Assembly (NCBI RefSeq): GCF_014837105.1
Contig: NZ_JACSPO010000001.1
Coordinates: 873,662 to 937,661 of the forward strand
Direction: 5' to 3'
DNA length: 64,000 nt
DNA from: Oceanitalea stevensii
GTDB taxonomy: Bacteria; Actinomycetota; Actinomycetes; Actinomycetales; Actinomycetaceae
Below are positions 15,199 through 62,644 of this stretch, in pieces. Position numbers and translations under genes: made by a program. The stretch's first letter is position 1. Each line of letters begins with the position of its first letter. The notes below the pieces were generated by a model. That model did not search any database. It saw nothing but the letters and a program-made list of their open reading frames with translations, and was not told the DNA's origin.

Positions 15199-15938
15199 GA
15201 ATCACCCTCAAGGTCTGGCGTCAGGCCAACGCCGCCACCCGCGGTCGGATGGTCGACTACACGCTCGACGACGTCTCCGAGGACATGTCCTTCCTCGAGA
15301 TGCTCGACGTCCTCAACGAGCAGCTCATCGGCCAGGGCGAGGAGCCGGTGGCCTTCGACCACGACTGCCGCGAGGGCATCTGCGGCATGTGCGGCCTCAT
15401 GATCGACGGCGTCGCGCACGGGCCCGAGGTCACCACGGTCTGCCAGCTCCACATGCGCTCCTTCAAGGACGGCGACACGATCACCGTCGAGCCGTGGCGC
15501 GCGGACCCCTTCCCCGTCATCAAGGACCTCGTCGTCGACCGCTCGGCCTTCGACCGGATCATCCAGGCCGGCGGCTTCATCTCCGCCAACACCGGCGCGG
15601 CCCCGGACGCCCACGCGACCCCGGTGCCCAAGGCCGACGCCGACGCCGCCTTCGAGGCGGCCGCCTGCATCAGCTGCGGCGCCTGCGTCGCGGCCTGCCC
15701 CAACGGCTCCTCGATGCTCTTCACCGCCGCCAAGGTCACGCACCTCGGCAAGCTGCCCCAGGGCCAGCCGGAGCGGCTCGGGCGCGTGGTGTCGATGGTC
15801 GCCCAGCAGGACGCCGAGGGCTTCGGCGGCTGCACGAACATCGGCGAGTGCGCGTCCGTGTGCCCCAAGGGCATCCCGCTGGACACGATCAACCAGCTGA
15901 ACTTCGACCTGCGGACCGCCCTGCGCCACGGCGCCTGA
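15195..15938 (+). CDS. sdhB: succinate dehydrogenase iron-sulfur subunit
   Basis: Electron-transfer subunit, 247 residues. Cys motifs for the three clusters are visible: 2Fe-2[11 protein letters not shown], 4Fe-4[14 protein letters not shown], and 3Fe-4[18 protein letters not shown]. The GTG overlaps the sdhA stop as GTGA. It is the last gene of the operon, and a long palindrome lies 20 bases after the stop. Confidence 0.96.
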
Positions 15939-15958
15939 CCCCGGCCCCACCTCTCCCA

Positions 15959-16030
15959 GCCGAGTACGCACGGACGGTCACCAGCGGCGCCTTGCGGCGC
16001 CGGCTGCGTGACCGTTCGTGCGTACTCGGC
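15959..16030. terminator. long bidirectional hairpin between sdhB and yihY-like gene
   Basis: A 72-base near-perfect palindrome between convergent genes. The outer arms start GCCGAGTACGCACG (15959 on) and mirror to the end at 16030 with one mismatch. An inner GGCGCC/GGCGCC helix encloses a TTGC loop. Probable terminator for both genes. Confidence 0.7.
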
Positions 16031-16032
16031 GC

Positions 16033-19574: not shown

Positions 19575-20803
19575 GCGTCCTCGCCCCCGCCTGGACCGCC
19601 GACGACGGCGCCCGCCGGGCCCGCGACCTCCTCGCCTCCACCCTCGGGCCCGAGCCCGCCGACGGCGTCTGGGCGGCCCCCGGCCGCGTCAACCTCATCG
19701 GGGAGCACACCGACTACAACGGCGGCCTCTGCCTGCCGGTGGCCCTGCCCCACCGCACCTACGTCGCGGTCCGCCGTCGGGACGACCGGACCGTGCGCCT
19801 CAGTTCGGCGCAGGAGGAGGGCGTGCGCACCGTCGACCTCGACGGCGTCGGCCCGGCGGGCTCGCCGGGTGCGGTCGAGGGCTGGCCGGCGTACGTCGTC
19901 GGCGTCGCCTGGGCGCTCGTCGCCGAGGGGCTCGTCCCCGCCGAACGGGTGACCGGCTTCGACGTCGCCGTGGACAGCTGTGTGCCCTACGGCGCCGGCC
20001 TGTCCTCCTCGGCGGCGCTCGAGTGCGCGGTCGCGATCGCGCTCGACGAGCTGTGGGGGCTGGGCCTGGCGGCGGACGACGCCGGACGGGCCCGCCTCGC
20101 GGCCGCGTGCGTGCGCGCGGAGAACGAGGTCGCCGGGGCACCGACGGGCGGGATGGACCAGTCCGCCTCGCTCCGTGCTCAGGAGGCCCGGGCCCTGCTC
20201 CTCGACTGCCGCGACGGCTCCACCCGGCAGGTCCCCTTCGCGCTCGAGGCGGCGGGGCTGGAGCTGCTCGTCATCGACACCCGCGCCCCGCACGCGCTCG
20301 TCGACGGCCAGTACGCCGAGCGCCGCGACAGCTGCGAGCGCGCCGCCCGGCAGCTCGGCGTGACGACGCTGCGCGAGGTCGAGGACCTCGACGCCGCCCT
20401 GGCCGCGCTGGACGACCCGGTCGTCCAGCGGCGGGTGCGCCACGTCGTCACCGAGATCGGGCGCGTCGCCCGCTTCGCCGAGGAGCTGGACGCCGGGCCG
20501 CTCGACACCGGCCGGGCGGCGGCGCTCGGCGCGCTCATGGCCGGCTCGCACGCCTCCATGCGCGACGACTACGAGATCTCCTGCGCCGAGCTCGACCTCG
20601 CCGTGGAGACCGCGACGGCTGCCGGCGCCCACGGCGCCCGGATGACCGGCGGCGGCTTCGGCGGCTCGGCGATCGCGCTGCTGCCGGCCGGGCAGGCCGA
20701 GCGCGTGGCCGGGGCGGTCAGCGCGGCCTTCGCCGCCGCCGGCTTCGCCGCACCGGCCTTCCTCCTCGCCCCCGCGAGCGCCCCCGCCGCCCGCACCGCC
20801 TGA
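19571..20803 (+). CDS. galK: galactokinase
   Basis: GHMP-family kinase phosphorylating galactose with ATP, 410 residues. Galactokinase signature GRVNLIGEHTDYNGG is near residue 36, the ATP-binding GAGLSSSAAL near 140, and the C-terminal GHMP motif MTGGGFGGSAIAL near 358. It starts with GTG overlapping the galT stop. No galE or galactose transporter is in the window. Confidence 0.96.
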   Translation: MSVLAPAWTADDGARRARDLLASTLGPEPADGVWAAPGRVNLIGEHTDYNGGLCLPVALPHRTYVAVRRRDDRTVRLSSAQEEGVRTVDLDGVGPAGSPGAVEGWPAYVVGVAWALVAEGLVPAERVTGFDVAVDSCVPYGAGLSSSAALECAVAIALDELWGLGLAADDAGRARLAAACVRAENEVAGAPTGGMDQSASLRAQEARALLLDCRDGSTRQVPFALEAAGLELLVIDTRAPHALVDGQYAERRDSCERAARQLGVTTLREVEDLDAALAALDDPVVQRRVRHVVTEIGRVARFAEELDAGPLDTGRAAALGALMAGSHASMRDDYEISCAELDLAVETATAAGAHGARMTGGGFGGSAIALLPAGQAERVAGAVSAAFAAAGFAAPAFLLAPASAPAARTA

Positions 20804-20815
20804 CGACCGCCCCCT

Positions 20816-20946
20816 CTTCGCGCCGACAGCCGGATCCCGCCCGGGTCTCCTCGTCCTTCGCGCCGACAGCGCTCCTCGCCCTTCGCAGCAACAGCTGGAT
20901 CCCGCCCGGGGCGTGCGGGGCGAGATCCAGCTGTCGGCGAGAAGGG
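20816..20946. repeat. imperfect palindrome-family copies between galK and xthA
   Basis: Three direct partial copies of a CTTCGC(G/A)(C/G)C(G/A)ACAGC half-unit start near 20816, 20856 and 20881. The first and third run on into a shared GGATCCCGCCCGGG segment. The last pairs with ATCCAGCTGT at about 20925-20934 to form a stem, and the region ends with TGTCGGCGAGAAG. It probably terminates both convergent genes, with decayed extra half-copies. Confidence 0.6.
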
Positions 20947-20951
20947 GGGCC

Positions 20952-21842: not shown

Positions 21843-24326
21843 CTACGGGCGGCGCACGCCCAGGGTGTCGGTCCCGTTGCCGTCCCAGTCACCCACGTAC
21901 ACCTCGTCGCCCTCGCGGCCGAAGGTGAGGACCCGGTCGGCGTCCCCGCCGCGGAGGGAGTTGTTGACGTGGAAGACGCGCCCGCGCTGGATGGTCAGCG
22001 TGTCGGTGCCGTTGCCGTCCCAGTCGCCCGCGAGGGTGGTGTCACCGGCGCGGCCGTAGGTGAGGACCGTGTCGGCGTCCCCGCCGCGCAGGGAGTTCCT
22101 CACGTGGTAGGTCGCGGCCCGGCGCACCGTGAAGGTGTCCGTCCCGTCCCCGTTCCAGTCACCGACGAGGACCGTGTCGTCCTCCCGGCCGTAACGGACG
22201 ACGCGGTCGGCGTCGCCGCCGGTCAGCCGGTTCTTCACGTGGTAGTCCGCGCCGCGGCGCACGGCGAGCGTGTCTCGGCCGTCGCCGTCCCAGTCGCCGA
22301 CGAGCAGCGTGTCACCCGGACGTCCGTAGGTGAAGGTTTGCGCGGCGTCACCACCGCGGTGTCCGCCGGACACGTGGATCACGTTCCCGCGGCGCACCGC
22401 GATCGTGTCGACGCCGTCGCCGTCCCAGTCGCCGATGAGCACCTCGTCCCCGGTGCGGCCGTAGCGGAAGACCTCGTCCGTGGTGCCGCGCCAGTCGTTG
22501 CTCAGGTGGAACTGCGGGGACGCCGTGGGCGGGGGGACGTCTCCGGGCCGCACCACCATGGCGCTGCCCCCACCCGAGCGCTCCGGCTCGGCGGCCGCCT
22601 GCAGCCGGCCGTCGGGGAGGAAGGCGATACCCGTGACGTTGCCGAGCGTGCCCACCTCGGTGACCGTGTGGCCCCGGGCGCGGAGAGCCTCACCGAGCGC
22701 GGTGCCGGCGATCGCCGCCTCCGCCTCGCTGGCCGCACCGTTGCGGCTGGACAGCCGGGGAGCGGCGATGGCCTCGGGCAGCGACATGCCCAGGTCGAGG
22801 TGGTTGATCGCCACCTGGAGCACCGTCGTGATGATGGTGGAGCCACCGGGTGAGCCGAAGGCGGCGACCGGGGCGCCGTCGTCGAGCACGATCGTCGGGG
22901 CCATGCTGCTGCGCGGTCGCTTGCCGCCCTCCGGCGCGTTGGCGGGGTGCTCGGGGTCGGGCTCGAAGTCGGTGAGCTGGTTGTTGAGGAGGAAGCCGTA
23001 CCCGGGCACGGCGATCCCGCTGCCGCCGATCTGCTCGATGGTGAAGGTGTAGCTCACGACGTTGCCCCACCGGTCGGCGACCGTGAGGTGCGTCGTCGAG
23101 CCGTGCCCCTCCGCGGACCCGGCGGACGCGGCCGCGCCCTCGCCGTCGTCGTAGGGCCACGGGTCCCCGGCCGGGACGGGCCGCGCCTGCGCCTCGGGGC
23201 CGACGAGCTCGCGCCGCTCGTCGGCGAAGCCCTGCGACAGCAGCCCGGTGAGCGGGACGTCGAGGAAGGCCTCGTCACCGACGTAGGCGTTGCGGTCGGC
23301 GAAGGCGAGGGCCGAGCTCTCGGCCATGTGGTGGAGGACCTCCTCCTCGGCCATGCCGGCGAGGTCGAAGCCCTCGAGGATGTTGAGGGCCTCCCCCACC
23401 GTCGAGCCGCCGCTCGAGGGCGGCGCCATCCCGTAGACCTCCAGGCCGCGGTAGTCCACGACCGTGGGCTCCTGCTCGAGCGCCTCGTAGCCGGCGAGGT
23501 CCGCCAGGGTCATCTCCCCGGGCCGGACCGGGCGCTCGGCGCCGTCGGCCAGTGGCGGGTTGGTGTTGGTCGCGACGATCGCCTCGGCGATCTCGCCCTC
23601 GTAGAAGACGTCGGCGCCCTCCTCGCCGAGGAGGCGGTAGGTGTCGGCGAGCTCCTCGTTGGTGATGACGGTGCCCTCCGCGGGCGCCTCGCCGTCGACG
23701 AGGAACGTCTCGGTGCTCGAGGTGAAGTCCTGGAAGATCTCGAGGTTGTCCGCGGTCCGCGACTCGTACTGGGCGTCGACGACGAACCCGTCCTCGGCGA
23801 CCCGCACGGCCGGCTCCAGCACCTCGGCGAGCGACTTCGTCCCGTACTCCGACAGCGCGAGCTCCCACCCGCGGACGAGTCCCGGCACGCCCTGGGAGAG
23901 TCCCGAGACGCGCCGCTCGCCGAAGGGGATGGGCTCGCCGTCCTCGAGGAAGACGTCCGGCTCCATCGCCGCCCACGCCTCCTCGCGGGAGTCGATCGTC
24001 GTCACCTCGCCGGTGTCGGCGGAGTAGAGGACGAAGAAGCCGCCGCCGCCGATGCTCCCGTCGTAGGGGCGGGTGACGCCGAGCGCGGCGGAGGCGGCGA
24101 CGGCGGCGTCGACGGCGTTCCCGCCCTCGCGCAGCACCTCCAGGCCGGCGAGCGAGGCGTAGGGGTCGAGGGAGGCGACGGCGCCGTCGTAGCCGGTGGC
24201 GGTCGCCTCCTTGTCGTACTCCTGCGGCAGGCCGTGGGCCGCCGGGACGGTGCCGACGACGAGCGCCGCCGTCAGCGGAAGGATGAGGGTGGCCGGCCGG
24301 AGCGGCCGTCTCGCGTGGTGCGACAT
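21843..24326 (-). CDS. ggt: secreted gamma-glutamyltransferase with five C-terminal FG-GAP/VCBS-like repeats
   Basis: An 827-residue exported enzyme. A signal peptide (charged N-terminus, hydrophobic stretch 12-30) is followed by a complete gamma-glutamyltranspeptidase of about 590 residues. The self-processing nucleophile is Thr411 in GSTTHLTVAD, with the substrate-binding APPSSGGST near 301. After a Pro-rich linker come five repeats of exactly 45 residues, each with a calcium-loop motif D-W-D/N-G-D/N-G (Asp at 633, 678, 723, 768 and 813) and an RYGR strand. These resemble FG-GAP/VCBS propeller blades and may bind wall glycans or calcium. The fusion is unusual for GGT, which hydrolyses glutathione or gamma-glutamyl peptides. 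GGAGGACAA precedes the ATG. Confidence 0.93.
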   Translation of the reverse strand: MSHHARRPLRPATLILPLTAALVVGTVPAAHGLPQEYDKEATATGYDGAVASLDPYASLAGLEVLREGGNAVDAAVAASAALGVTRPYDGSIGGGGFFVLYSADTGEVTTIDSREEAWAAMEPDVFLEDGEPIPFGERRVSGLSQGVPGLVRGWELALSEYGTKSLAEVLEPAVRVAEDGFVVDAQYESRTADNLEIFQDFTSSTETFLVDGEAPAEGTVITNEELADTYRLLGEEGADVFYEGEIAEAIVATNTNPPLADGAERPVRPGEMTLADLAGYEALEQEPTVVDYRGLEVYGMAPPSSGGSTVGEALNILEGFDLAGMAEEEVLHHMAESSALAFADRNAYVGDEAFLDVPLTGLLSQGFADERRELVGPEAQARPVPAGDPWPYDDGEGAAASAGSAEGHGSTTHLTVADRWGNVVSYTFTIEQIGGSGIAVPGYGFLLNNQLTDFEPDPEHPANAPEGGKRPRSSMAPTIVLDDGAPVAAFGSPGGSTIITTVLQVAINHLDLGMSLPEAIAAPRLSSRNGAASEAEAAIAGTALGEALRARGHTVTEVGTLGNVTGIAFLPDGRLQAAAEPERSGGGSAMVVRPGDVPPPTASPQFHLSNDWRGTTDEVFRYGRTGDEVLIGDWDGDGVDTIAVRRGNVIHVSGGHRGGDAAQTFTYGRPGDTLLVGDWDGDGRDTLAVRRGADYHVKNRLTGGDADRVVRYGREDDTVLVGDWNGDGTDTFTVRRAATYHVRNSLRGGDADTVLTYGRAGDTTLAGDWDGNGTDTLTIQRGRVFHVNNSLRGGDADRVLTFGREGDEVYVGDWDGNGTDTLGVRRP

Positions 24327-28524: not shown

Positions 28525-28588
28525 CGCCGACAGCCGGATTGCGCCCAGCGGTCGGGGACAGGCGCCGGGCGCAATCCAGCTGTCGGCG
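28525..28588 (-). terminator. palindrome-family terminator after purU
   Basis: 22-bp arms starting CGCCGACAGCCGGATTGC (28525 on) and ending at 28588, with one C/T difference that still allows a G-U pair, around a 20-nt loop. It begins 26 bases past the purU stop. It carries the outer half-site shared with the copies near 20.9, 42.0, 54.3 and 62.6 kb. Confidence 0.7.
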
Positions 28589-40602: not shown

Positions 40603-41856
40603 GTGACCCTCCCTCCCCTCCCCACCCGGGTGGCCGTCGTCGGGACCGGGCTGGCCGGCCTGCGGACGGCCGCCGAGCTGCGCGGCCAGGGCTTCAGCGG
40701 GCACCTCACCGTCGTCGGGGAGGAGCAGGTGGCTCCCTACGACCGCCCGCCGCTGAGCAAGGAGCTCCTCACCCGCACCGCGCCGGTCGACCTCGCCGGT
40801 GAGGGCTACGGGGACCTCACCGCGCTCGCCGACGAGCTCCTCACCGGCCACCGCGCCGTCGCCCTCGACGCGGACGACGACGGCGCGCGGCTCACCGTCG
40901 CGGGACCCGAGGGGACGCGGGAGGTGGCGTCCGACGTCGTCGTCGTCGCGACCGGGGCCGGTCCCGTCGTCGTGCCGGGGTGGAGCGACGTCCTCACCCT
41001 TCACGACCTCGACGACGCCGCGCGGCTGCGTGGGCTGCTGCGGCCGGGGGCTCGGCTCGCCGTCATCGGCGCGGGCTGGGTCGGTGCCGAGCTCGCGACG
41101 GTTGCCGCGGCGGCCGGCGTGGACGTCACGGTCCTCGAGGGCGGCCCGGTGCCGCTCGGGCACGTGCTCGGCCCGCGGGTCGGGGAGCTGCTCGTGCCCT
41201 GGTACGCCGAGCGCGGGATCACGCTGCGCTGCGGCGCGACGGTCGCCACCGCGGACGCGAGTGGCGTGGGGCTGGCCGACGGCTCCAGGGTGACGGCCGA
41301 CGTCGTCGTCGCCGCGGTCGGGGTGCGGCCGAGCACGGCGTGGCTGTCCGGCTCGGTGCCGCTCACCGCGCGCGGCGCGGTGCCCGTCGACCTCACCGGG
41401 CGGGTGCGCGGCGGGCCGGCGTCCGTCCGCGCGGTCGGGGACTGCGCGGACCGCCACTCCCCGCGCGACGGCGTCGTGCCCGGCGCGCACTGGGACGGGG
41501 CGCTGTCCCACCCCGCCGCGCTCGTCGCCGAGCTGCTCGGCGCGGCCGACGGCCCGGCGCCGGACCCGGCCCCCTACGTGTTCTCCACCCAGCTCGGCCA
41601 CGAGCTGACGGTCGTCGGCCACGTGCCGGCGGGCGCGGAGGTCGTGCTGCGCGGCGAGCCCGGTGCCGGGCCGTGGACCGCGCTCTACGTGGTCCCGGAC
41701 GCGGCGGGTGCGCCGCGGCTGCACGCGGGTCTCACCGTGGACCGCCCCCGCGACGTCGGCCCGCTCCGCAAGGCGCTGTCGGCCCCGGAGCACCCGGCCG
41801 TCGACGTCGCCGCCGCCGCGGACCCGGCCACCCACCTCCGCAAGACCTTCACCTGA
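40603..41856 (+). CDS. ferredoxin/rhodocoxin reductase-like FAD oxidoreductase
   Basis: A 417-residue pyridine nucleotide-disulfide oxidoreductase of the ferredoxin-NAD(P)+ reductase (CamA/rhodocoxin reductase) type. FAD fold VVGTGLAGLRTAAELRGQG, then YDRPPLSKELL, NAD fold VIGAGWVGAELATVAAAAG, and VRAVGDCAD (FAD ribityl). It would reduce a ferredoxin for a P450 or dioxygenase, but no such partner is near. The GTG is predicted leaderless. Confidence 0.9.
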   Translation: MTLPPLPTRVAVVGTGLAGLRTAAELRGQGFSGHLTVVGEEQVAPYDRPPLSKELLTRTAPVDLAGEGYGDLTALADELLTGHRAVALDADDDGARLTVAGPEGTREVASDVVVVATGAGPVVVPGWSDVLTLHDLDDAARLRGLLRPGARLAVIGAGWVGAELATVAAAAGVDVTVLEGGPVPLGHVLGPRVGELLVPWYAERGITLRCGATVATADASGVGLADGSRVTADVVVAAVGVRPSTAWLSGSVPLTARGAVPVDLTGRVRGGPASVRAVGDCADRHSPRDGVVPGAHWDGALSHPAALVAELLGAADGPAPDPAPYVFSTQLGHELTVVGHVPAGAEVVLRGEPGAGPWTALYVVPDAAGAPRLHAGLTVDRPRDVGPLRKALSAPEHPAVDVAAAADPATHLRKTFT

Positions 41857-41903
41857 CGGACGGGGCTCGTCCGCAGTCCACCTCCCGCGAAGCCCCCCCC
41901 CGC

Positions 41904-42092
41904 GCCGAGAGCTGACTTATTACCGACAACCCCCCTCGCCGAGAGCTGAGTTATTACCGACAGCCCACCCATCGCAGAGCACTGACCGATAGCCCACCTA
42001 TCGCGAGAGCTGAGTTGTGACGGACGAGGGCCTGGCGGAACAAGTCAGCTGTCGGCGGGGGGGGGAGGGCCCGGCGGAACAAGTCAGCTGTC
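41904..42092. repeat. array of palindrome half-copies between convergent genes
   Basis: Four left half-copies (GCCGAGAGCTGACTTATTACC and variants) start near 41904, 41938, 41969 and 42000. Two right half-copies (GGCGGAACAAGTCAGCTGTC) start near 42033 and 42073. Left and right halves are complementary, so many alternative hairpins can form. It belongs to the same family as the hairpins near 20.9, 28.5, 54.3 and 62.6 kb. It lies between the reductase and purH stops and probably terminates both. Confidence 0.65.
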
Positions 42093-42109
42093 GGCGGGGA
42101 CGGGGCTTC

Positions 42110-43678
42110 TCAGTGGGCGAAGTGGCGGGTGCCGGTGAGGTACATCGTCACGCCGGCCGCCTGGGCCGCCGCGACGACCTCGTCGTCGCGGATCGAGCCG
42201 CCGGGCTGGACGACGGCGCGCACACCGGCGTCGAGGAGCACCTGGAGGCCGTCGGCGAAGGGGAAGAAGGCGTCGGAGGCGGCGACGGCGCCGCGGGCGC
42301 GCTCACGCCCCTCCCCCAGGGCGTTGGCCCGCTCCACCGCGAGGCGGCAGGAGTCGACCCGGTTGACCTGCCCCATGCCCACGCCCACGCTCGCGCCACC
42401 GGCGGCGAGGAGGATCGCGTTGGACCGCACGGCCCGCACCGAGCGCCACGCGAAGGCGAGGTCGGAGAGCGTGGCCGGGTCGGCGGGCTCGCCGGCGGCC
42501 AGGGTCCAGCCGCTCGGGTCGTCGCCGGGCGCGTCGACGAGGTCGCTGGCCTGGACGAGCAGCCCGCCGCTGACGGCGCGCATCTCCAGCCCGGAGCCGG
42601 AGCCCTCCGGAACGACGAGCAGGCGGATGTTCTTCTTCGCGGCGAGGATCTCCACCGCCTCCGGCTCGAAGGCCGGCGCGACGACGACCTCGGTGAAGAC
42701 CGGGGCGATCTGCGCGGCCGCCTCGGCCGTGACCGGCCGGTTGGCGGCGATGACGCCACCGAAGGCGGAGACCGGGTCGCAGGCGTGCGCGGCGGCGTGG
42801 GCGGCGGCGATCGTCGCGCCCACGGCGATGCCGCAGGGGTTGGCGTGCTTGATGATCGCGACGGCGGGGTCGGCGTGGTCGTGCGCGGCCCGCCACGCGG
42901 CGTCGGCGTCGACGTAGTTGTTGTAGCTCATCGCCTTGCCGTGCAGCTGCTCGGCCTGGGCGATCCCCGGCTCGCCGGAGCGGTACAGCGCGGCGGCCTG
43001 GTGCGGGTTCTCGCCGTAGCGCAGGACGTCGGCCCGCTGCCACGTGGCGCCGGTCCACGCCGGGAAGCGGCTCTCGTCGTCGGGCGCGACGACGTTGCCC
43101 ATCCACGACGCGACGGCGACGTCGTAGTCGGCCGTGTGCCGGAAGGCGGCGGCCGCGAGGCGGCGGCGCTGCTCGAGGGTGAAGCCGCCGGCGGCGACGG
43201 CCGCGGCGACGTCGTCGTACCCGGAGGGGTCGACGACGACGGCGACGCTCGCGTGGTTCTTCGCGGCGGCGCGCACCATGGTCGGCCCGCCGATGTCGAT
43301 CTGCTCGACGCACTCCTCGGGCGCGGCGCCGGAGGCCACCGTGTCGGTGAAGGGGTAGAGGTTGACGACGACGAGCTCGAAGGGCGCGACGCCCAGCTCC
43401 TCGAGCTCGCGGACGTGCGCGTCCTTGCGGAGGTCGGCGAGGATCCCCGCGTGGACGCGCGGGTGGAGGGTCTTGACCCGGCCGTCGAGGCACTCGGGGA
43501 AGCCGGTGACCTCCTCCACGGGGGTCACCGGGACGCCGGCCTCGGCGATGGTGCGGGCGGTGGAGCCGGTGGAGACGATCTCCACGCCGGCGGCGTGCAG
43601 CGCCTGGGCGAGCGGCGCGAGGCCGGTCTTGTCGTAGACGGAGACGAGGGCGCGGCGGACGGGACGCGAGTCGGTCAC
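42110..43678 (-). CDS. purH: bifunctional AICAR formyltransferase/IMP cyclohydrolase
   Basis: Last two steps of IMP synthesis. The 522 residues comprise an N-terminal MGS-like cyclohydrolase (about 1-145, starting [17 protein letters not shown]) and a C-terminal formyltransferase with the catalytic Lys-His in [10 protein letters not shown] and ending GTRHFAH. The GTG at 43678 has AGGAG eight bases upstream. A ZTP riboswitch precedes it, so expression responds to its own substrate (phosphorylated) when formyl-THF is limiting. Confidence 0.96.
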
Positions 43679-52285: not shown

Positions 52286-54164
52286 CGGCGGTCTCCGCCA
52301 GCAGGCGCTCGGAGAGCTCGGCGAAGGCCTCGGCGACGACGTCGGTGTACAGGTGCCCGCCCTCGATGTCGGGGTGGATGCCGTCGGACTGGAGCTTCTC
52401 CGGCTCGGCGTCGATGGCCGCGTACCAGTCCGCGATGATCGCGTTGGGGTAGTCGGCGACGACGTCCGCGAGCGCCGCGTTGGCCTCGGGGATCCAGTAC
52501 GAGCCGCCGTAGAGGTTGACGACGACGACCATCCGGCCCGGGCCGAGCGCGTCCAGCGCCGCCCGCACGACGTCGGGCTCCCCGACACCCGCGTTCGTCC
52601 CGAAGTCGAGGACGACGGCGCGGCGCACCGTGCCCTGGTCGACCGCCTGCTCGACCGCGGCCAGCCCGTCGGGCCACTGCCGGTTGGACTTCGCGTCGAG
52701 CGCGATCTCGGGCCAACGGGCGGTGAGCCCGTGAGCGCTCGTCACCATGATCGAGTCACCGAAGCCGCTGATCTCCTCGCCGGCGGGCACGGTCCAGTCG
52801 GCGTCGGCAGGAAGCGGCTCGGGCGCCTCGCTCTCGGCGGCGGAGGCGGCGACGAGCTCCTCGTTGGCCTCGATCTGCTGCTGGGTGAGGGACGTCGTCG
52901 GCGCCGTGGCCACCGCGACGGCGGTCGTGACGAGGAGGACGACGGCGGCCCCACCGACCACCTGCGCGGCGCGCCGGCCACCGCGCAGGGCGCTGCTCCA
53001 GCGGCGCCACACCCCGAGGAAGCCCTCCTGGCGCACCGGCATCTCCAGCCAGCGGTAGGAGGCTCCGGCGACCACCAGCGTGAGGACGAGCGCCAGCGCC
53101 CGGGTGGTCCAGCTGAGCGCGGAGTCGTAGGTGGTGGCCGGCATCAGCTCGGTGAGGACGAGGATGAGCGGCCAGTGCCACAGGTAGATGCCGTAGGAGC
53201 GCTCCCCCAGCCACGCGACCGGCGGCATCCGCAGCAGCCGCTGGTAGATGCCCACCGGCCCGAGGAGCGCCGCGACGAGGACGGCGGTGAGGAGGGAGGC
53301 GGCGAGGATGCCGCCGCGGAAGGTGAGGGCGGTGTCCTCGTGGAGGACCGTCATGAGGACGAGCAGGCCGGCGAGGGCGACGAGCGCCGCGGGCTGGCGC
53401 CAGCGTTGCCACGCCGCGGAGTGCAGCCAGCTGTGCGGGGAGGCCCAGGCGAAGGCGAGCGCCACCCCGATCATCAGCCCGAACAGGTGGGTGTCGGTGC
53501 CGTAGTAGACGCGGGTCGCGTCCTGCCCCGGGGTGTGGAGGAGAGCCATGAGGAGCGCGGAGACGGCGGCGACGGCGAGCGCGACGCGCACCCGCTGCCG
53601 GCCGGTGCTCGTCAGCGCGAGGAGCAGCCCGAGCAGCGGCGGCCACAGGAGGTAGAACTGCTCCTCCACCGCGAGGGACCAGAAGTTGACGAAGAGGAGT
53701 GGGGAGGTCTGGGCGAAGTAGCTCGAGCCCGCGCCGATCTCCAGCCAGTTGTTGGAGAAGGTGAGCGCCCCGAGCACCTGCCGGCCGATGTTGACGAGCA
53801 GGTCACCGCCCGCGACGGCTGCCAGGCTCACGCTCACGACGACGACGCTGACGAGTGCCGGCAGCAGTCGCCGGGCGCGCCGCAGCCAGAAGCGCGGGAG
53901 GTCCACCCGGCCCTTCTTGCCGAGCTCGCGCAGGAGCAGCGTGGTGATGAGGAAGCCGGAGATGACGAAGAAGACGTCGACGCCGAGGAAGCCCCCGGGC
54001 AGCGAGGTGGGTCGCAGGTGGTAGACGAGCACGGCGCCGACGGCCAGCGCCCGCAGGCCGTCCAGGCCGTGGATGTGCCCGGCCCGCGCGGTCGTGGCCG
54101 CGGGAGCACGACGGGAGGTCGTGCCGGTGCGCGCGGGACGAGCCGGCGCGGCGGTCTGAGCCAT
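52278..54164 (-). CDS. OafA/OatA-type acyltransferase with C-terminal SGNH domain
   Basis: 628-residue membrane enzyme. The acyltransferase-3 domain (about 30-400) starts with the catalytic-His region IHGLDGLRALAVGAVLVYH, includes GGFLGVDVFFVISGFLI, and has ten or so helices. A Ser/Glu/Ala-rich linker (about 425-465) leads to an extracytoplasmic SGNH hydrolase domain with Ser471 in GDSIM and Asp594-His597 in DGIHP. This architecture O-acetylates peptidoglycan or wall polysaccharide; the acceptor is unknown. GAGGAGGG precedes the ATG. Confidence 0.93.
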   Translation of the reverse strand: MAQTAAPARPARTGTTSRRAPAATTARAGHIHGLDGLRALAVGAVLVYHLRPTSLPGGFLGVDVFFVISGFLITTLLLRELGKKGRVDLPRFWLRRARRLLPALVSVVVVSVSLAAVAGGDLLVNIGRQVLGALTFSNNWLEIGAGSSYFAQTSPLLFVNFWSLAVEEQFYLLWPPLLGLLLALTSTGRQRVRVALAVAAVSALLMALLHTPGQDATRVYYGTDTHLFGLMIGVALAFAWASPHSWLHSAAWQRWRQPAALVALAGLLVLMTVLHEDTALTFRGGILAASLLTAVLVAALLGPVGIYQRLLRMPPVAWLGERSYGIYLWHWPLILVLTELMPATTYDSALSWTTRALALVLTLVVAGASYRWLEMPVRQEGFLGVWRRWSSALRGGRRAAQVVGGAAVVLLVTTAVAVATAPTTSLTQQQIEANEELVAASAAESEAPEPLPADADWTVPAGEEISGFGDSIMVTSAHGLTARWPEIALDAKSNRQWPDGLAAVEQAVDQGTVRRAVVLDFGTNAGVGEPDVVRAALDALGPGRMVVVVNLYGGSYWIPEANAALADVVADYPNAIIADWYAAIDAEPEKLQSDGIHPDIEGGHLYTDVVAEAFAELSERLLAETAGE

Positions 54165-54252
54165 CCGCCCTCCTCGACAGTTGTGTCACTGGCAGGCTAG
54201 GGCGCCGCAGACGCGGGCCGCGGGAGACGCGCCGCACCACCCCTCCCTTGTC

Positions 54253-54288
54253 GACAGCTGAGTTGTTCCGAGGAACAACTCAGCTGTC
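54253..54288 (-). terminator. palindrome-family terminator after pcrA
   Basis: Perfect 17-bp arms GACAGCTGAGTTGTTCC and GGAACAACTCAGCTGTC with a two-base centre, followed by GGCGGGAAGG. It lies 22 bases past the pcrA stop. Outer part shared with the other family copies. Confidence 0.7.
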
Positions 54289-54310
54289 GGCGGGAAGGGG
54301 GTGGTGGCGG

Positions 54311-57645: not shown

Positions 57646-58434
57646 CTAGGCGAGCGCCGTCGTCCCCCTGACGAGCCGGGCGCTCGTGTACCGGTTCTCA
57701 CCGGACCTGAACCGGGCGTGGGTGCTGCTCCCCTTGACCGCGGCGAAGCGTTCGAAGGGCCGGTGGACGGCGCGCGGGATCCACGCCTCGAGGAGGGCAC
57801 GACGCCGGTCGTCGTCGAGCTCGAGCGCGGCGCAGACGTTCGCGGTGATGTCGTGCAGCTCCACCACCTCGAGGGGGCCGTGGCGCAGGGTGGCCAGCAG
57901 CTCGACCATGTCGTCCCGCCCGCGGAGGTCGGCGAGCAGGAGACTCCCGCCGGGGCGGAGCACCCGGTGGACCTCCGCGAGGAAGGCCTCGACCGAGGGG
58001 TAGCAGTGCGAGGACTCGACGTTGACGACCACGTCGAAGGACTCGTCGGGGAACGGCAGGTCCAGCGCGTCGCCCTGGACGAAGGTGAGGCCCGGGGCGT
58101 GGCGGTGGCGCCGGCACAGCGCGACGGCGGCGCGGGAGAGGTCGACGCCGGTCGTCGTCCGTGGCGCGCGGTAGCGAGCGAGGAACGAGGAGCCGCCGCC
58201 CCGCCCGCAGCCGACCTCGAGCACGTCCGCGCCGCGCAGGTCCACGTCCCGGGTGACGTGGTCGTAGAGCTGGATGCACATGCGGTCCGGCTCGTCGGCC
58301 GGCTCGAGGGCCAGGGGCTGCTCGTCGGCGTCGAGAGGGGCGTAGCCGTAGTTCATGAAGGCCCACTCCGGGCGGCGCACGCGCGCCCCGAGCACCTCGT
58401 ACAGGGCCCGCCACCCGAGCTGCCGCATCGACAT
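57646..58434 (-). CDS. SAM-dependent methyltransferase, phthiotriol-type
   Basis: 262-residue class I methyltransferase. VLEVGCGRGGGSSFLARY (motif I), TGVDLSRAAV and GDALDLPFPDESFDVV are textbook. The N-terminal WAFMNYGYAPLD resembles mycobacterial lipid O-methyltransferases such as Rv2952, so a lipid or polyketide acceptor is possible, not shown. TAGCCT lies six bases before the ATG; no ribosome binding site. Confidence 0.88.
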   Translation of the reverse strand: MSMRQLGWRALYEVLGARVRRPEWAFMNYGYAPLDADEQPLALEPADEPDRMCIQLYDHVTRDVDLRGADVLEVGCGRGGGSSFLARYRAPRTTTGVDLSRAAVALCRRHRHAPGLTFVQGDALDLPFPDESFDVVVNVESSHCYPSVEAFLAEVHRVLRPGGSLLLADLRGRDDMVELLATLRHGPLEVVELHDITANVCAALELDDDRRRALLEAWIPRAVHRPFERFAAVKGSSTHARFRSGENRYTSARLVRGTTALA

Positions 58435-58440
58435 GCCTGC

Positions 58441-58446
58441 AGGCTA
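58441..58446 (-). promoter_or_regulatory. putative -10 element of a leaderless methyltransferase transcript
   Basis: TAGCCT on the minus strand, six bases before the ATG at 58434. Confidence 0.45.
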
Positions 58447-58481
58447 GGGCCACGCACGCAGCGCTGCGCGCCCCCGCGCCC

Positions 58482-58585
58482 GCCCTGCCGCTCCCGGTCC
58501 CCCCTCCGCCCTGCCGCTCCCGGTCCCCCCTCCGCCCTGCCGCTCCCGGTCCCCCCTGCGCCCTGCCTCTCCCGATCCCCCGCTG
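58482..58585. repeat. 26-bp tandem repeat, four units
   Basis: A 26-bp C-rich unit beginning GCCCTGCCGCTCCCGG repeats at 58482, 58508, 58534 and 58560. The first three are nearly identical; the fourth has drifted. Lies upstream of the methyltransferase start region. No coding potential assigned. Confidence 0.75.
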
Positions 58586-58620
58586 CGGATACGGCTTTCG
58601 GCTGCTGATATATCCGCAGC
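58582..58620. repeat. hairpin inside the repeat block
   Basis: Arms GCTGCGGATA (58582-58591) and TATCCGCAGC (58611-58620), perfect over 10 bp, around 19 nt. The loop includes an AT-rich patch unusual in this GC context. Confidence 0.6.
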
Positions 58621-58658
58621 GAGGAGCAGTGTCCGCAGCGAGGAGCAGTGTCCGCAGC
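58621..58658. repeat. 19-bp tandem repeat, two units
   Basis: GAGGAGCAGTGTCCGCAGC occurs twice in direct tandem (58621-58639 and 58640-58658). The TCCGCAGC end also matches the right arm of the preceding hairpin, as if the repeat grew from it. Confidence 0.7.
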
Positions 58659-58711
58659 GCGGTGCGGCGAGCCGCCGAGCGCCGCAGCGCGGTGCGGCGA
58701 GCCGCCGAGCG
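58652..58711. repeat. 30-bp tandem repeat, two units, near the response regulator stop
   Basis: Two units of 30 bp beginning CCGCAGCGCGGTGCGGCGAG, each containing the small hairpin GCGGC-GA-GCCGC. May terminate the response-regulator transcript, whose stop is about 20 bases away. Confidence 0.65.
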
Positions 58712-58732
58712 GCGCACCGCCGGGCCGCCCGC

Positions 58733-62601: not shown

Positions 62602-62644
62602 CGCCGAGAGCCGGATTCCTCGTCGAGGAATCCGGCTCTCGGCG
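62602..62644. terminator. palindrome-family bidirectional terminator
   Basis: A 43-base palindrome: perfect 21-bp arms beginning CGCCGAGAGCCGGATTCC and a single T at the centre (62623). Lies between convergent stops. Outer half-site shared with the family near 20.9, 28.5, 42.0 and 54.3 kb. Confidence 0.75.

Follow-up and report, generated by a model that had tools for sequence, protein, structure and literature searches.

Why should the gap between two converging genes be filled with the arms of a palindrome, four of them pointing one way and two the other, and what could such an array do at this place? The array lies in the window (the whole 64,000-nucleotide stretch of DNA that was analysed) between an oxidoreductase gene and purH, as follows:

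40603-41856, + strand: left converging gene, pyridine-nucleotide-disulphide oxidoreductase with Reductase_C (PF07992, PF14759)
41903-41936, + strand: left copy 1, unit 41903-41923 plus spacer
41937-41972, + strand: left copy 2, unit 41937-41957 plus spacer, 88-91% identical to copy 1
41973-42001, + strand: left copy 3, the most decayed, with a spacer common to copy 2
42002-42025, + strand: left copy 4, with a tail, GTGACGGACGRGGGCC, also found in the orthologous gap of genome G001
42026-42064, - strand: right copy 1, 21-nt core 42037-42057, 39-nt repeat
42065-42103, - strand: right copy 2, 21-nt core 42076-42096, 92% identical to right copy 1
42110-43678, - strand: right converging gene, purH (AICARFT/IMPCHase; PF01808, PF02142)

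The answer that we consider probable is that the array belongs to a genus-specific set of REP/BIME-like palindromic repeats at gene 3′ ends, which would act as hairpin transcription stops or 3′-end barriers and, between converging genes, would do so in both directions.

The array and the family to which it belongs

The 253-nt gap (41857-42109) is filled by four direct copies on the left and two inverse copies on the right of a unit of approximately 21 nt (consensus CGCCGASAGCTGASTTGTTMC). This count agrees with that of the first-pass annotation, and neither the left-arm nor the right-arm pattern had a single match in dinucleotide-preserving shuffles of the window. The left copies start at positions 41903, 41937, 41973 and 42002, which gives periods of 34, 36 and ~29 nt, and the period on the right is 39 nt. 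The third left copy had been singled out as the most decayed, and it is: about 6 nt are absent within the unit and its identity to copies 1 and 2 is 72-78%. The fourth copy is 70-77% identical to the first two. The arms on both sides are of the main flavour described below, the left ones reading GAGAGC...TTATTACC and the right ones GACAGC...TTGTTCC, and the pairing between them is imperfect. As single-stranded DNA the array region folds with z = -6.7 relative to shuffles, and as RNA the predicted fold is about -107 kcal/mol for either strand. Searching the target against Rfam returned nothing above the gathering score, the best hit being a chance match (21.6 vs 86 bits).

What had been called halves are present in both orientations, as described, and turn out to be one unit that is repeated throughout the genome. 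In the genome of the window (3.53 Mb, 31 contigs) there are about 250 copies of the main unit (≤3 mismatches; one match for the reversed-pattern control) and about 250 copies of a sister unit, CGCCGACAGCYGGATYCCKC (12 matches for the control). Four other loci of the family are in the window:

20821-20939: sister flavour, convergent gap
28525-28588: sister flavour, one arm pair
54249-54292: main flavour, one near-perfect hairpin
62602-62644: sister flavour, one perfect hairpin, convergent gap

Among named genomes the exact main word was found in Georgenia satyanarayanai only. Looser patterns occurred in quantity only within the genus of the window, and elsewhere in the same family and order their counts were at chance level; as far as tested, the repeats are therefore restricted to Georgenia. 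The flavour drifts between species: genome G003 has 422 matches to CGASAGCYGASTTS and 0 to the flavour of the window (two mismatches). The exact unit was not found in viral contigs, and in the open literature that was searched, Georgenia repeats of this kind are nowhere described.

The position of the units relative to genes was determined in 938 kb of contig C11 of the window's genome, with genes predicted by a simple codon-usage gene finder. Convergent gaps contained 3.9 units per kb, tandem gaps 1.35 and divergent gaps 0.42. In 880 kb of G003 the ranking was the same (4.5, 1.7 and 0.3 per kb, respectively). The median start of a unit on C11 was 18 nt after the stop codon in convergent gaps and 26.5 nt in tandem gaps, close behind the stop codon as in intrinsic terminators. 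True genic copies were nearly absent from C11: most apparent genic matches were either weak and on a par with the control or copies at contig ends or gene edges, and the clearest exception was a pair at C11:233288-233344. Stems of at least 12 bp were present in 62% of the convergent gaps that lacked the unit, as opposed to 3.5% of the divergent gaps, and for this reason the family can be said to fill a terminator niche. Hairpins are common at gene 3′ ends here, and the family is that part of the set which shares a sequence.

Could the repeats instead be a selfish miniature element, a hairpin copied by a transposase acting in trans, with gene ends merely tolerating its insertion? Hundreds of dispersed, genus-restricted copies with lineage-specific flavours would fit such an element, and so would the numerous compact arm pairs, whose loops measure 0-4 nt; an intergenic location is also expected from tolerance. 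Tolerance alone, however, fails to explain the location, because divergent gaps, which contain more intergenic bases in total than convergent ones, have a unit density about nine times lower. Moreover, no Y1/RAYT transposase gene (PF01797) was found in any of six Georgenia genomes, while all five control genomes were positive, and a clean empty site accompanied by a target duplication was not encountered. We regard the selfish element as unlikely.

Arm pairs and one-sided arrays

The arrays have a fixed polarity. In 24 of the 25 C11 gaps that contain both orientations, the first arm is + and the last arm is -. The innermost + - pairs were of one flavour on both arms in every case (43/43), a result that shuffling gave in 55% on average and in 77% at most, and facing arms were 90% identical, compared with 77% after shuffling. 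This agreement, of which the target with its imperfect pairing is a weaker case, could result from arm-to-arm copying or from selection for pairing.

The numbers of arms on the two sides are often unequal (5:2, 3:9, 4:6, 1:7, 3:2). Neighbours of the same orientation are 89% alike and mostly follow each other with periods of 28-55 nt, of which 32, 34 and 36 are the commonest. Because arm numbers are unequal, periods and spacers are specific to one side and tandem neighbours are similar, there is good support for tandem duplications of an arm plus its spacer that affect a single side each time. The earlier suggestion that the hairpin had been expanded arm by arm thus holds, whereas the accompanying proposal of strand switching is possible but unproven. 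Slippage or unequal exchange would be the mechanism by which the arms multiply.

In 20 of 86 loci several units were present in a single orientation only, and no local pairing is possible there. One-sided arrays are most conspicuous in G003, where the periods are 18 nt, the longest array has 26 units and a single orientation is found in 22 of 27. Such arrays tend to be placed opposite one another, with 0-7 genes (0.2-8 kb) between them. In a small sample, a contiguous 880 kb of G003 only, for which the list of intervals was compiled by hand, intervals from + to - arrays were shorter than those from - to + (Mann-Whitney p = 0.008), and all four neighbouring arrays within 4 kb were + followed by -. 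The first examples of facing arrays had been chosen for their paired look; a few of the arrays in the 880 kb had already been in earlier match lists. The outer flanks of the G003 arrays are C-rich (63% C). In the window's genome facing arrays surround an M23-peptidase-like gene (C11:75561-76017, arrays within C11:75436-76250), an arrangement conserved in G001, and a DinB-like gene (C11:543293-543893, arrays within C11:543175-544260).

By eye, the enclosed genes resemble nth, serC, purK/purE, rsmI, fructokinase, M23 peptidase and DinB genes. The idea that they are a recurring mobile cargo was rejected, since their sequences give the impression of normal resident genes and two of them keep their place from one species to another. 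In G003 the matches listed had hinted at a replication-strand bias; this was dropped, as the list seems to be cut short by strand. The genes flanking one of the one-sided arrays (G003 C1:2119056) have one extra gene between them in the window's genome (C11:384024-384822).

One might suppose that the arm is an orientation-dependent element and that inverted arrays bracket one or several genes, shielding them from outside transcription, the target being the form that encloses no gene. This is improbable in our judgement; if the facing half-arrays of G003 did act as insulators, they would partition a bacterial chromosome in an unusual manner. A still less likely reading takes the unit for an orientation-dependent site that binds protein or RNA, for Rho loading or insulation for example, in which the array does the work and the hairpin is secondary. 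Single-orientation arrays in both genomes (the window's and G003), facing arrays around whole genes, the C-rich outer flanks in G003 and the C/G ratio of 2.4 in the RNA that enters the target from either side all point in this direction. Facing arms, however, match in flavour far beyond chance, which is better explained by pairing; the G003 arrays are not clearly oriented by the direction of the neighbouring genes, and the C-rich signal does not reach significance when all gaps with the family in the window's genome are taken together.

A short word in high copy number that forms inverted pairs 3′ of genes would also be accounted for by DNA uptake sequences of the kind known from Neisseria and Pasteurellaceae. 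Such sequences are also common within genes. The true genic copies are nearly absent here, the arrays are tandem and they are very unevenly distributed along the chromosome, and we consider this explanation very improbable.

Orthologous gaps in other species

The gap that contains the target differs among species. In G001 the left part is kept with its 34-nt period and with the tail of left copy 4, and the right side consists of other units in a repeat of 53 nt. A separate, longer array occupies the gap in G002, and strong hairpins of different sequence are present in G004; in G005 and G003 the gap is short and without an array. Since the orthologous gaps differ in this way and the left part recurs in G001, the target array is neither static nor limited to one assembly. 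The observation named in the first-pass annotation as one that would refute its reading, an identical array in distant species, was not made: G003, G005 and G004 lack the array and that of G002 is a different one.

Two other gaps of the window exchanged flavours with the strong hairpin kept: at 20803-20951 the window has the sister flavour and G001 the main one, and at 54164-54310 the window has the main flavour and G004 the sister one. The hairpin was not kept at every ortholog, since at these two places the gap in G002 is short or lacks a unit. The family would spread, or would be homogenised, within a genome.

That the array is an artefact of assembly with a wrong copy number is hardly credible: arrays do break assemblies, since at least two contigs start in or next to unit arrays (C11:3-247; C27:322-534), but the target is only ~200 nt long and has unique genes on both flanks, G001, an independent assembly, has its left part again with the same 34-nt spacing, and far longer arrays are found in the single-contig genome G003. 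In short-read assemblies the copy numbers of long arrays may be collapsed.

Other repeats were noticed in the window. A near-perfect long hairpin of other sequence (GCCGAGTACGCAC...) lies between converging genes at 15938-16032; it is also present in G001, and unrelated sequence takes its place in G002 and G004. The 298-nt gap 58434-58732 contains three tandem repeats (26 nt × 3.9, 19 nt × 2.5 and 30 nt × 2.3), and its ortholog in G001 is 35 nt long. Positions 21849-22464, probably within the gene at 21843-24326, are taken up by ~4.6 tandem copies of a 135-nt repeat, for which 270 nt is an alternative reading.

Putative function and resemblance to known systems

If the repeats serve as hairpin transcription stops or 3′-end barriers, RNA polymerase would stop at a strong hairpin without a U-tract; in the target region, where a U-tract terminator was looked for, none was found. 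Such stopping is our inference; the location of the hairpins, their strength, the matching of their arms and the exchange of one hairpin for another in the same gap are read from the sequences. Rho perhaps helps at the target, a proposal made because the RNA entering it from either gene is C-rich. The Rho-like signal is raised in G003 and not significantly so over the family gaps of the window's genome as a whole, and for this reason it is taken as a possible helper only.

As a natural experiment, the family could show how terminator hairpins are replaced and homogenised, and whether arms are duplicated one at a time. It also presents palindromic repeats without a detected RAYT in an actinobacterial genus, located at terminator sites, whose arm numbers and flavours vary between close species.

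The known systems share some of these features. REP, BIME and REPIN sequences are likewise short dispersed extragenic repeats with hundreds of copies and lineage-specific flavours, and they too form clusters and hairpin-forming inverted pairs (PMC3116915, PMC3733652). They are GTAG-tagged and RAYT-associated, in contrast to the Georgenia family; furthermore, the Georgenia unit is the arm of a hairpin and not the palindrome itself, and its arms are multiplied separately on each side. Column counts revealed neither a GTAG nor a CGTC tag at the ends of the unit, the 5′ end of which is CGCCGA. Because the genus has no detected RAYT and the tags are missing, we do not file the family as REP/REPIN. 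The CGTC-tagged palindromic repeats are said to have no dedicated transposase either (PMC3733652), but the Georgenia unit lacks the defining CGTC at its start or end; the survey lists them for five phyla, Actinobacteria not among them (PMC3733652).

DNA uptake sequences of Neisseria and Pasteurellaceae, arranged as terminators, are likewise a short word in hundreds of copies, often in inverted pairs after genes (PMC2346458); the scarcity of Georgenia units in genes and their tandem arm arrays set the two apart. The TAACTGA direct repeats of Beggiatoaceae also form many intergenic tandem sets in one lineage (PMC4679880). They are a different word and almost all direct, whereas the direct arrays of Georgenia face each other as the arms of a palindrome.

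Hairpin-cluster intrinsic terminators are mostly situated within 80 nt of the stop codon and are often clustered (PMC8355165), as the Georgenia arrays are, and in that proposal a U-tract is not required (PMC8355165). They are short hairpins unrelated in sequence, whereas in Georgenia one long stem sequence occurs at hundreds of loci. In its behaviour the family resembles REP/BIME or a hairpin-cluster terminator (PMC3116915, PMC3733652, PMC8355165).
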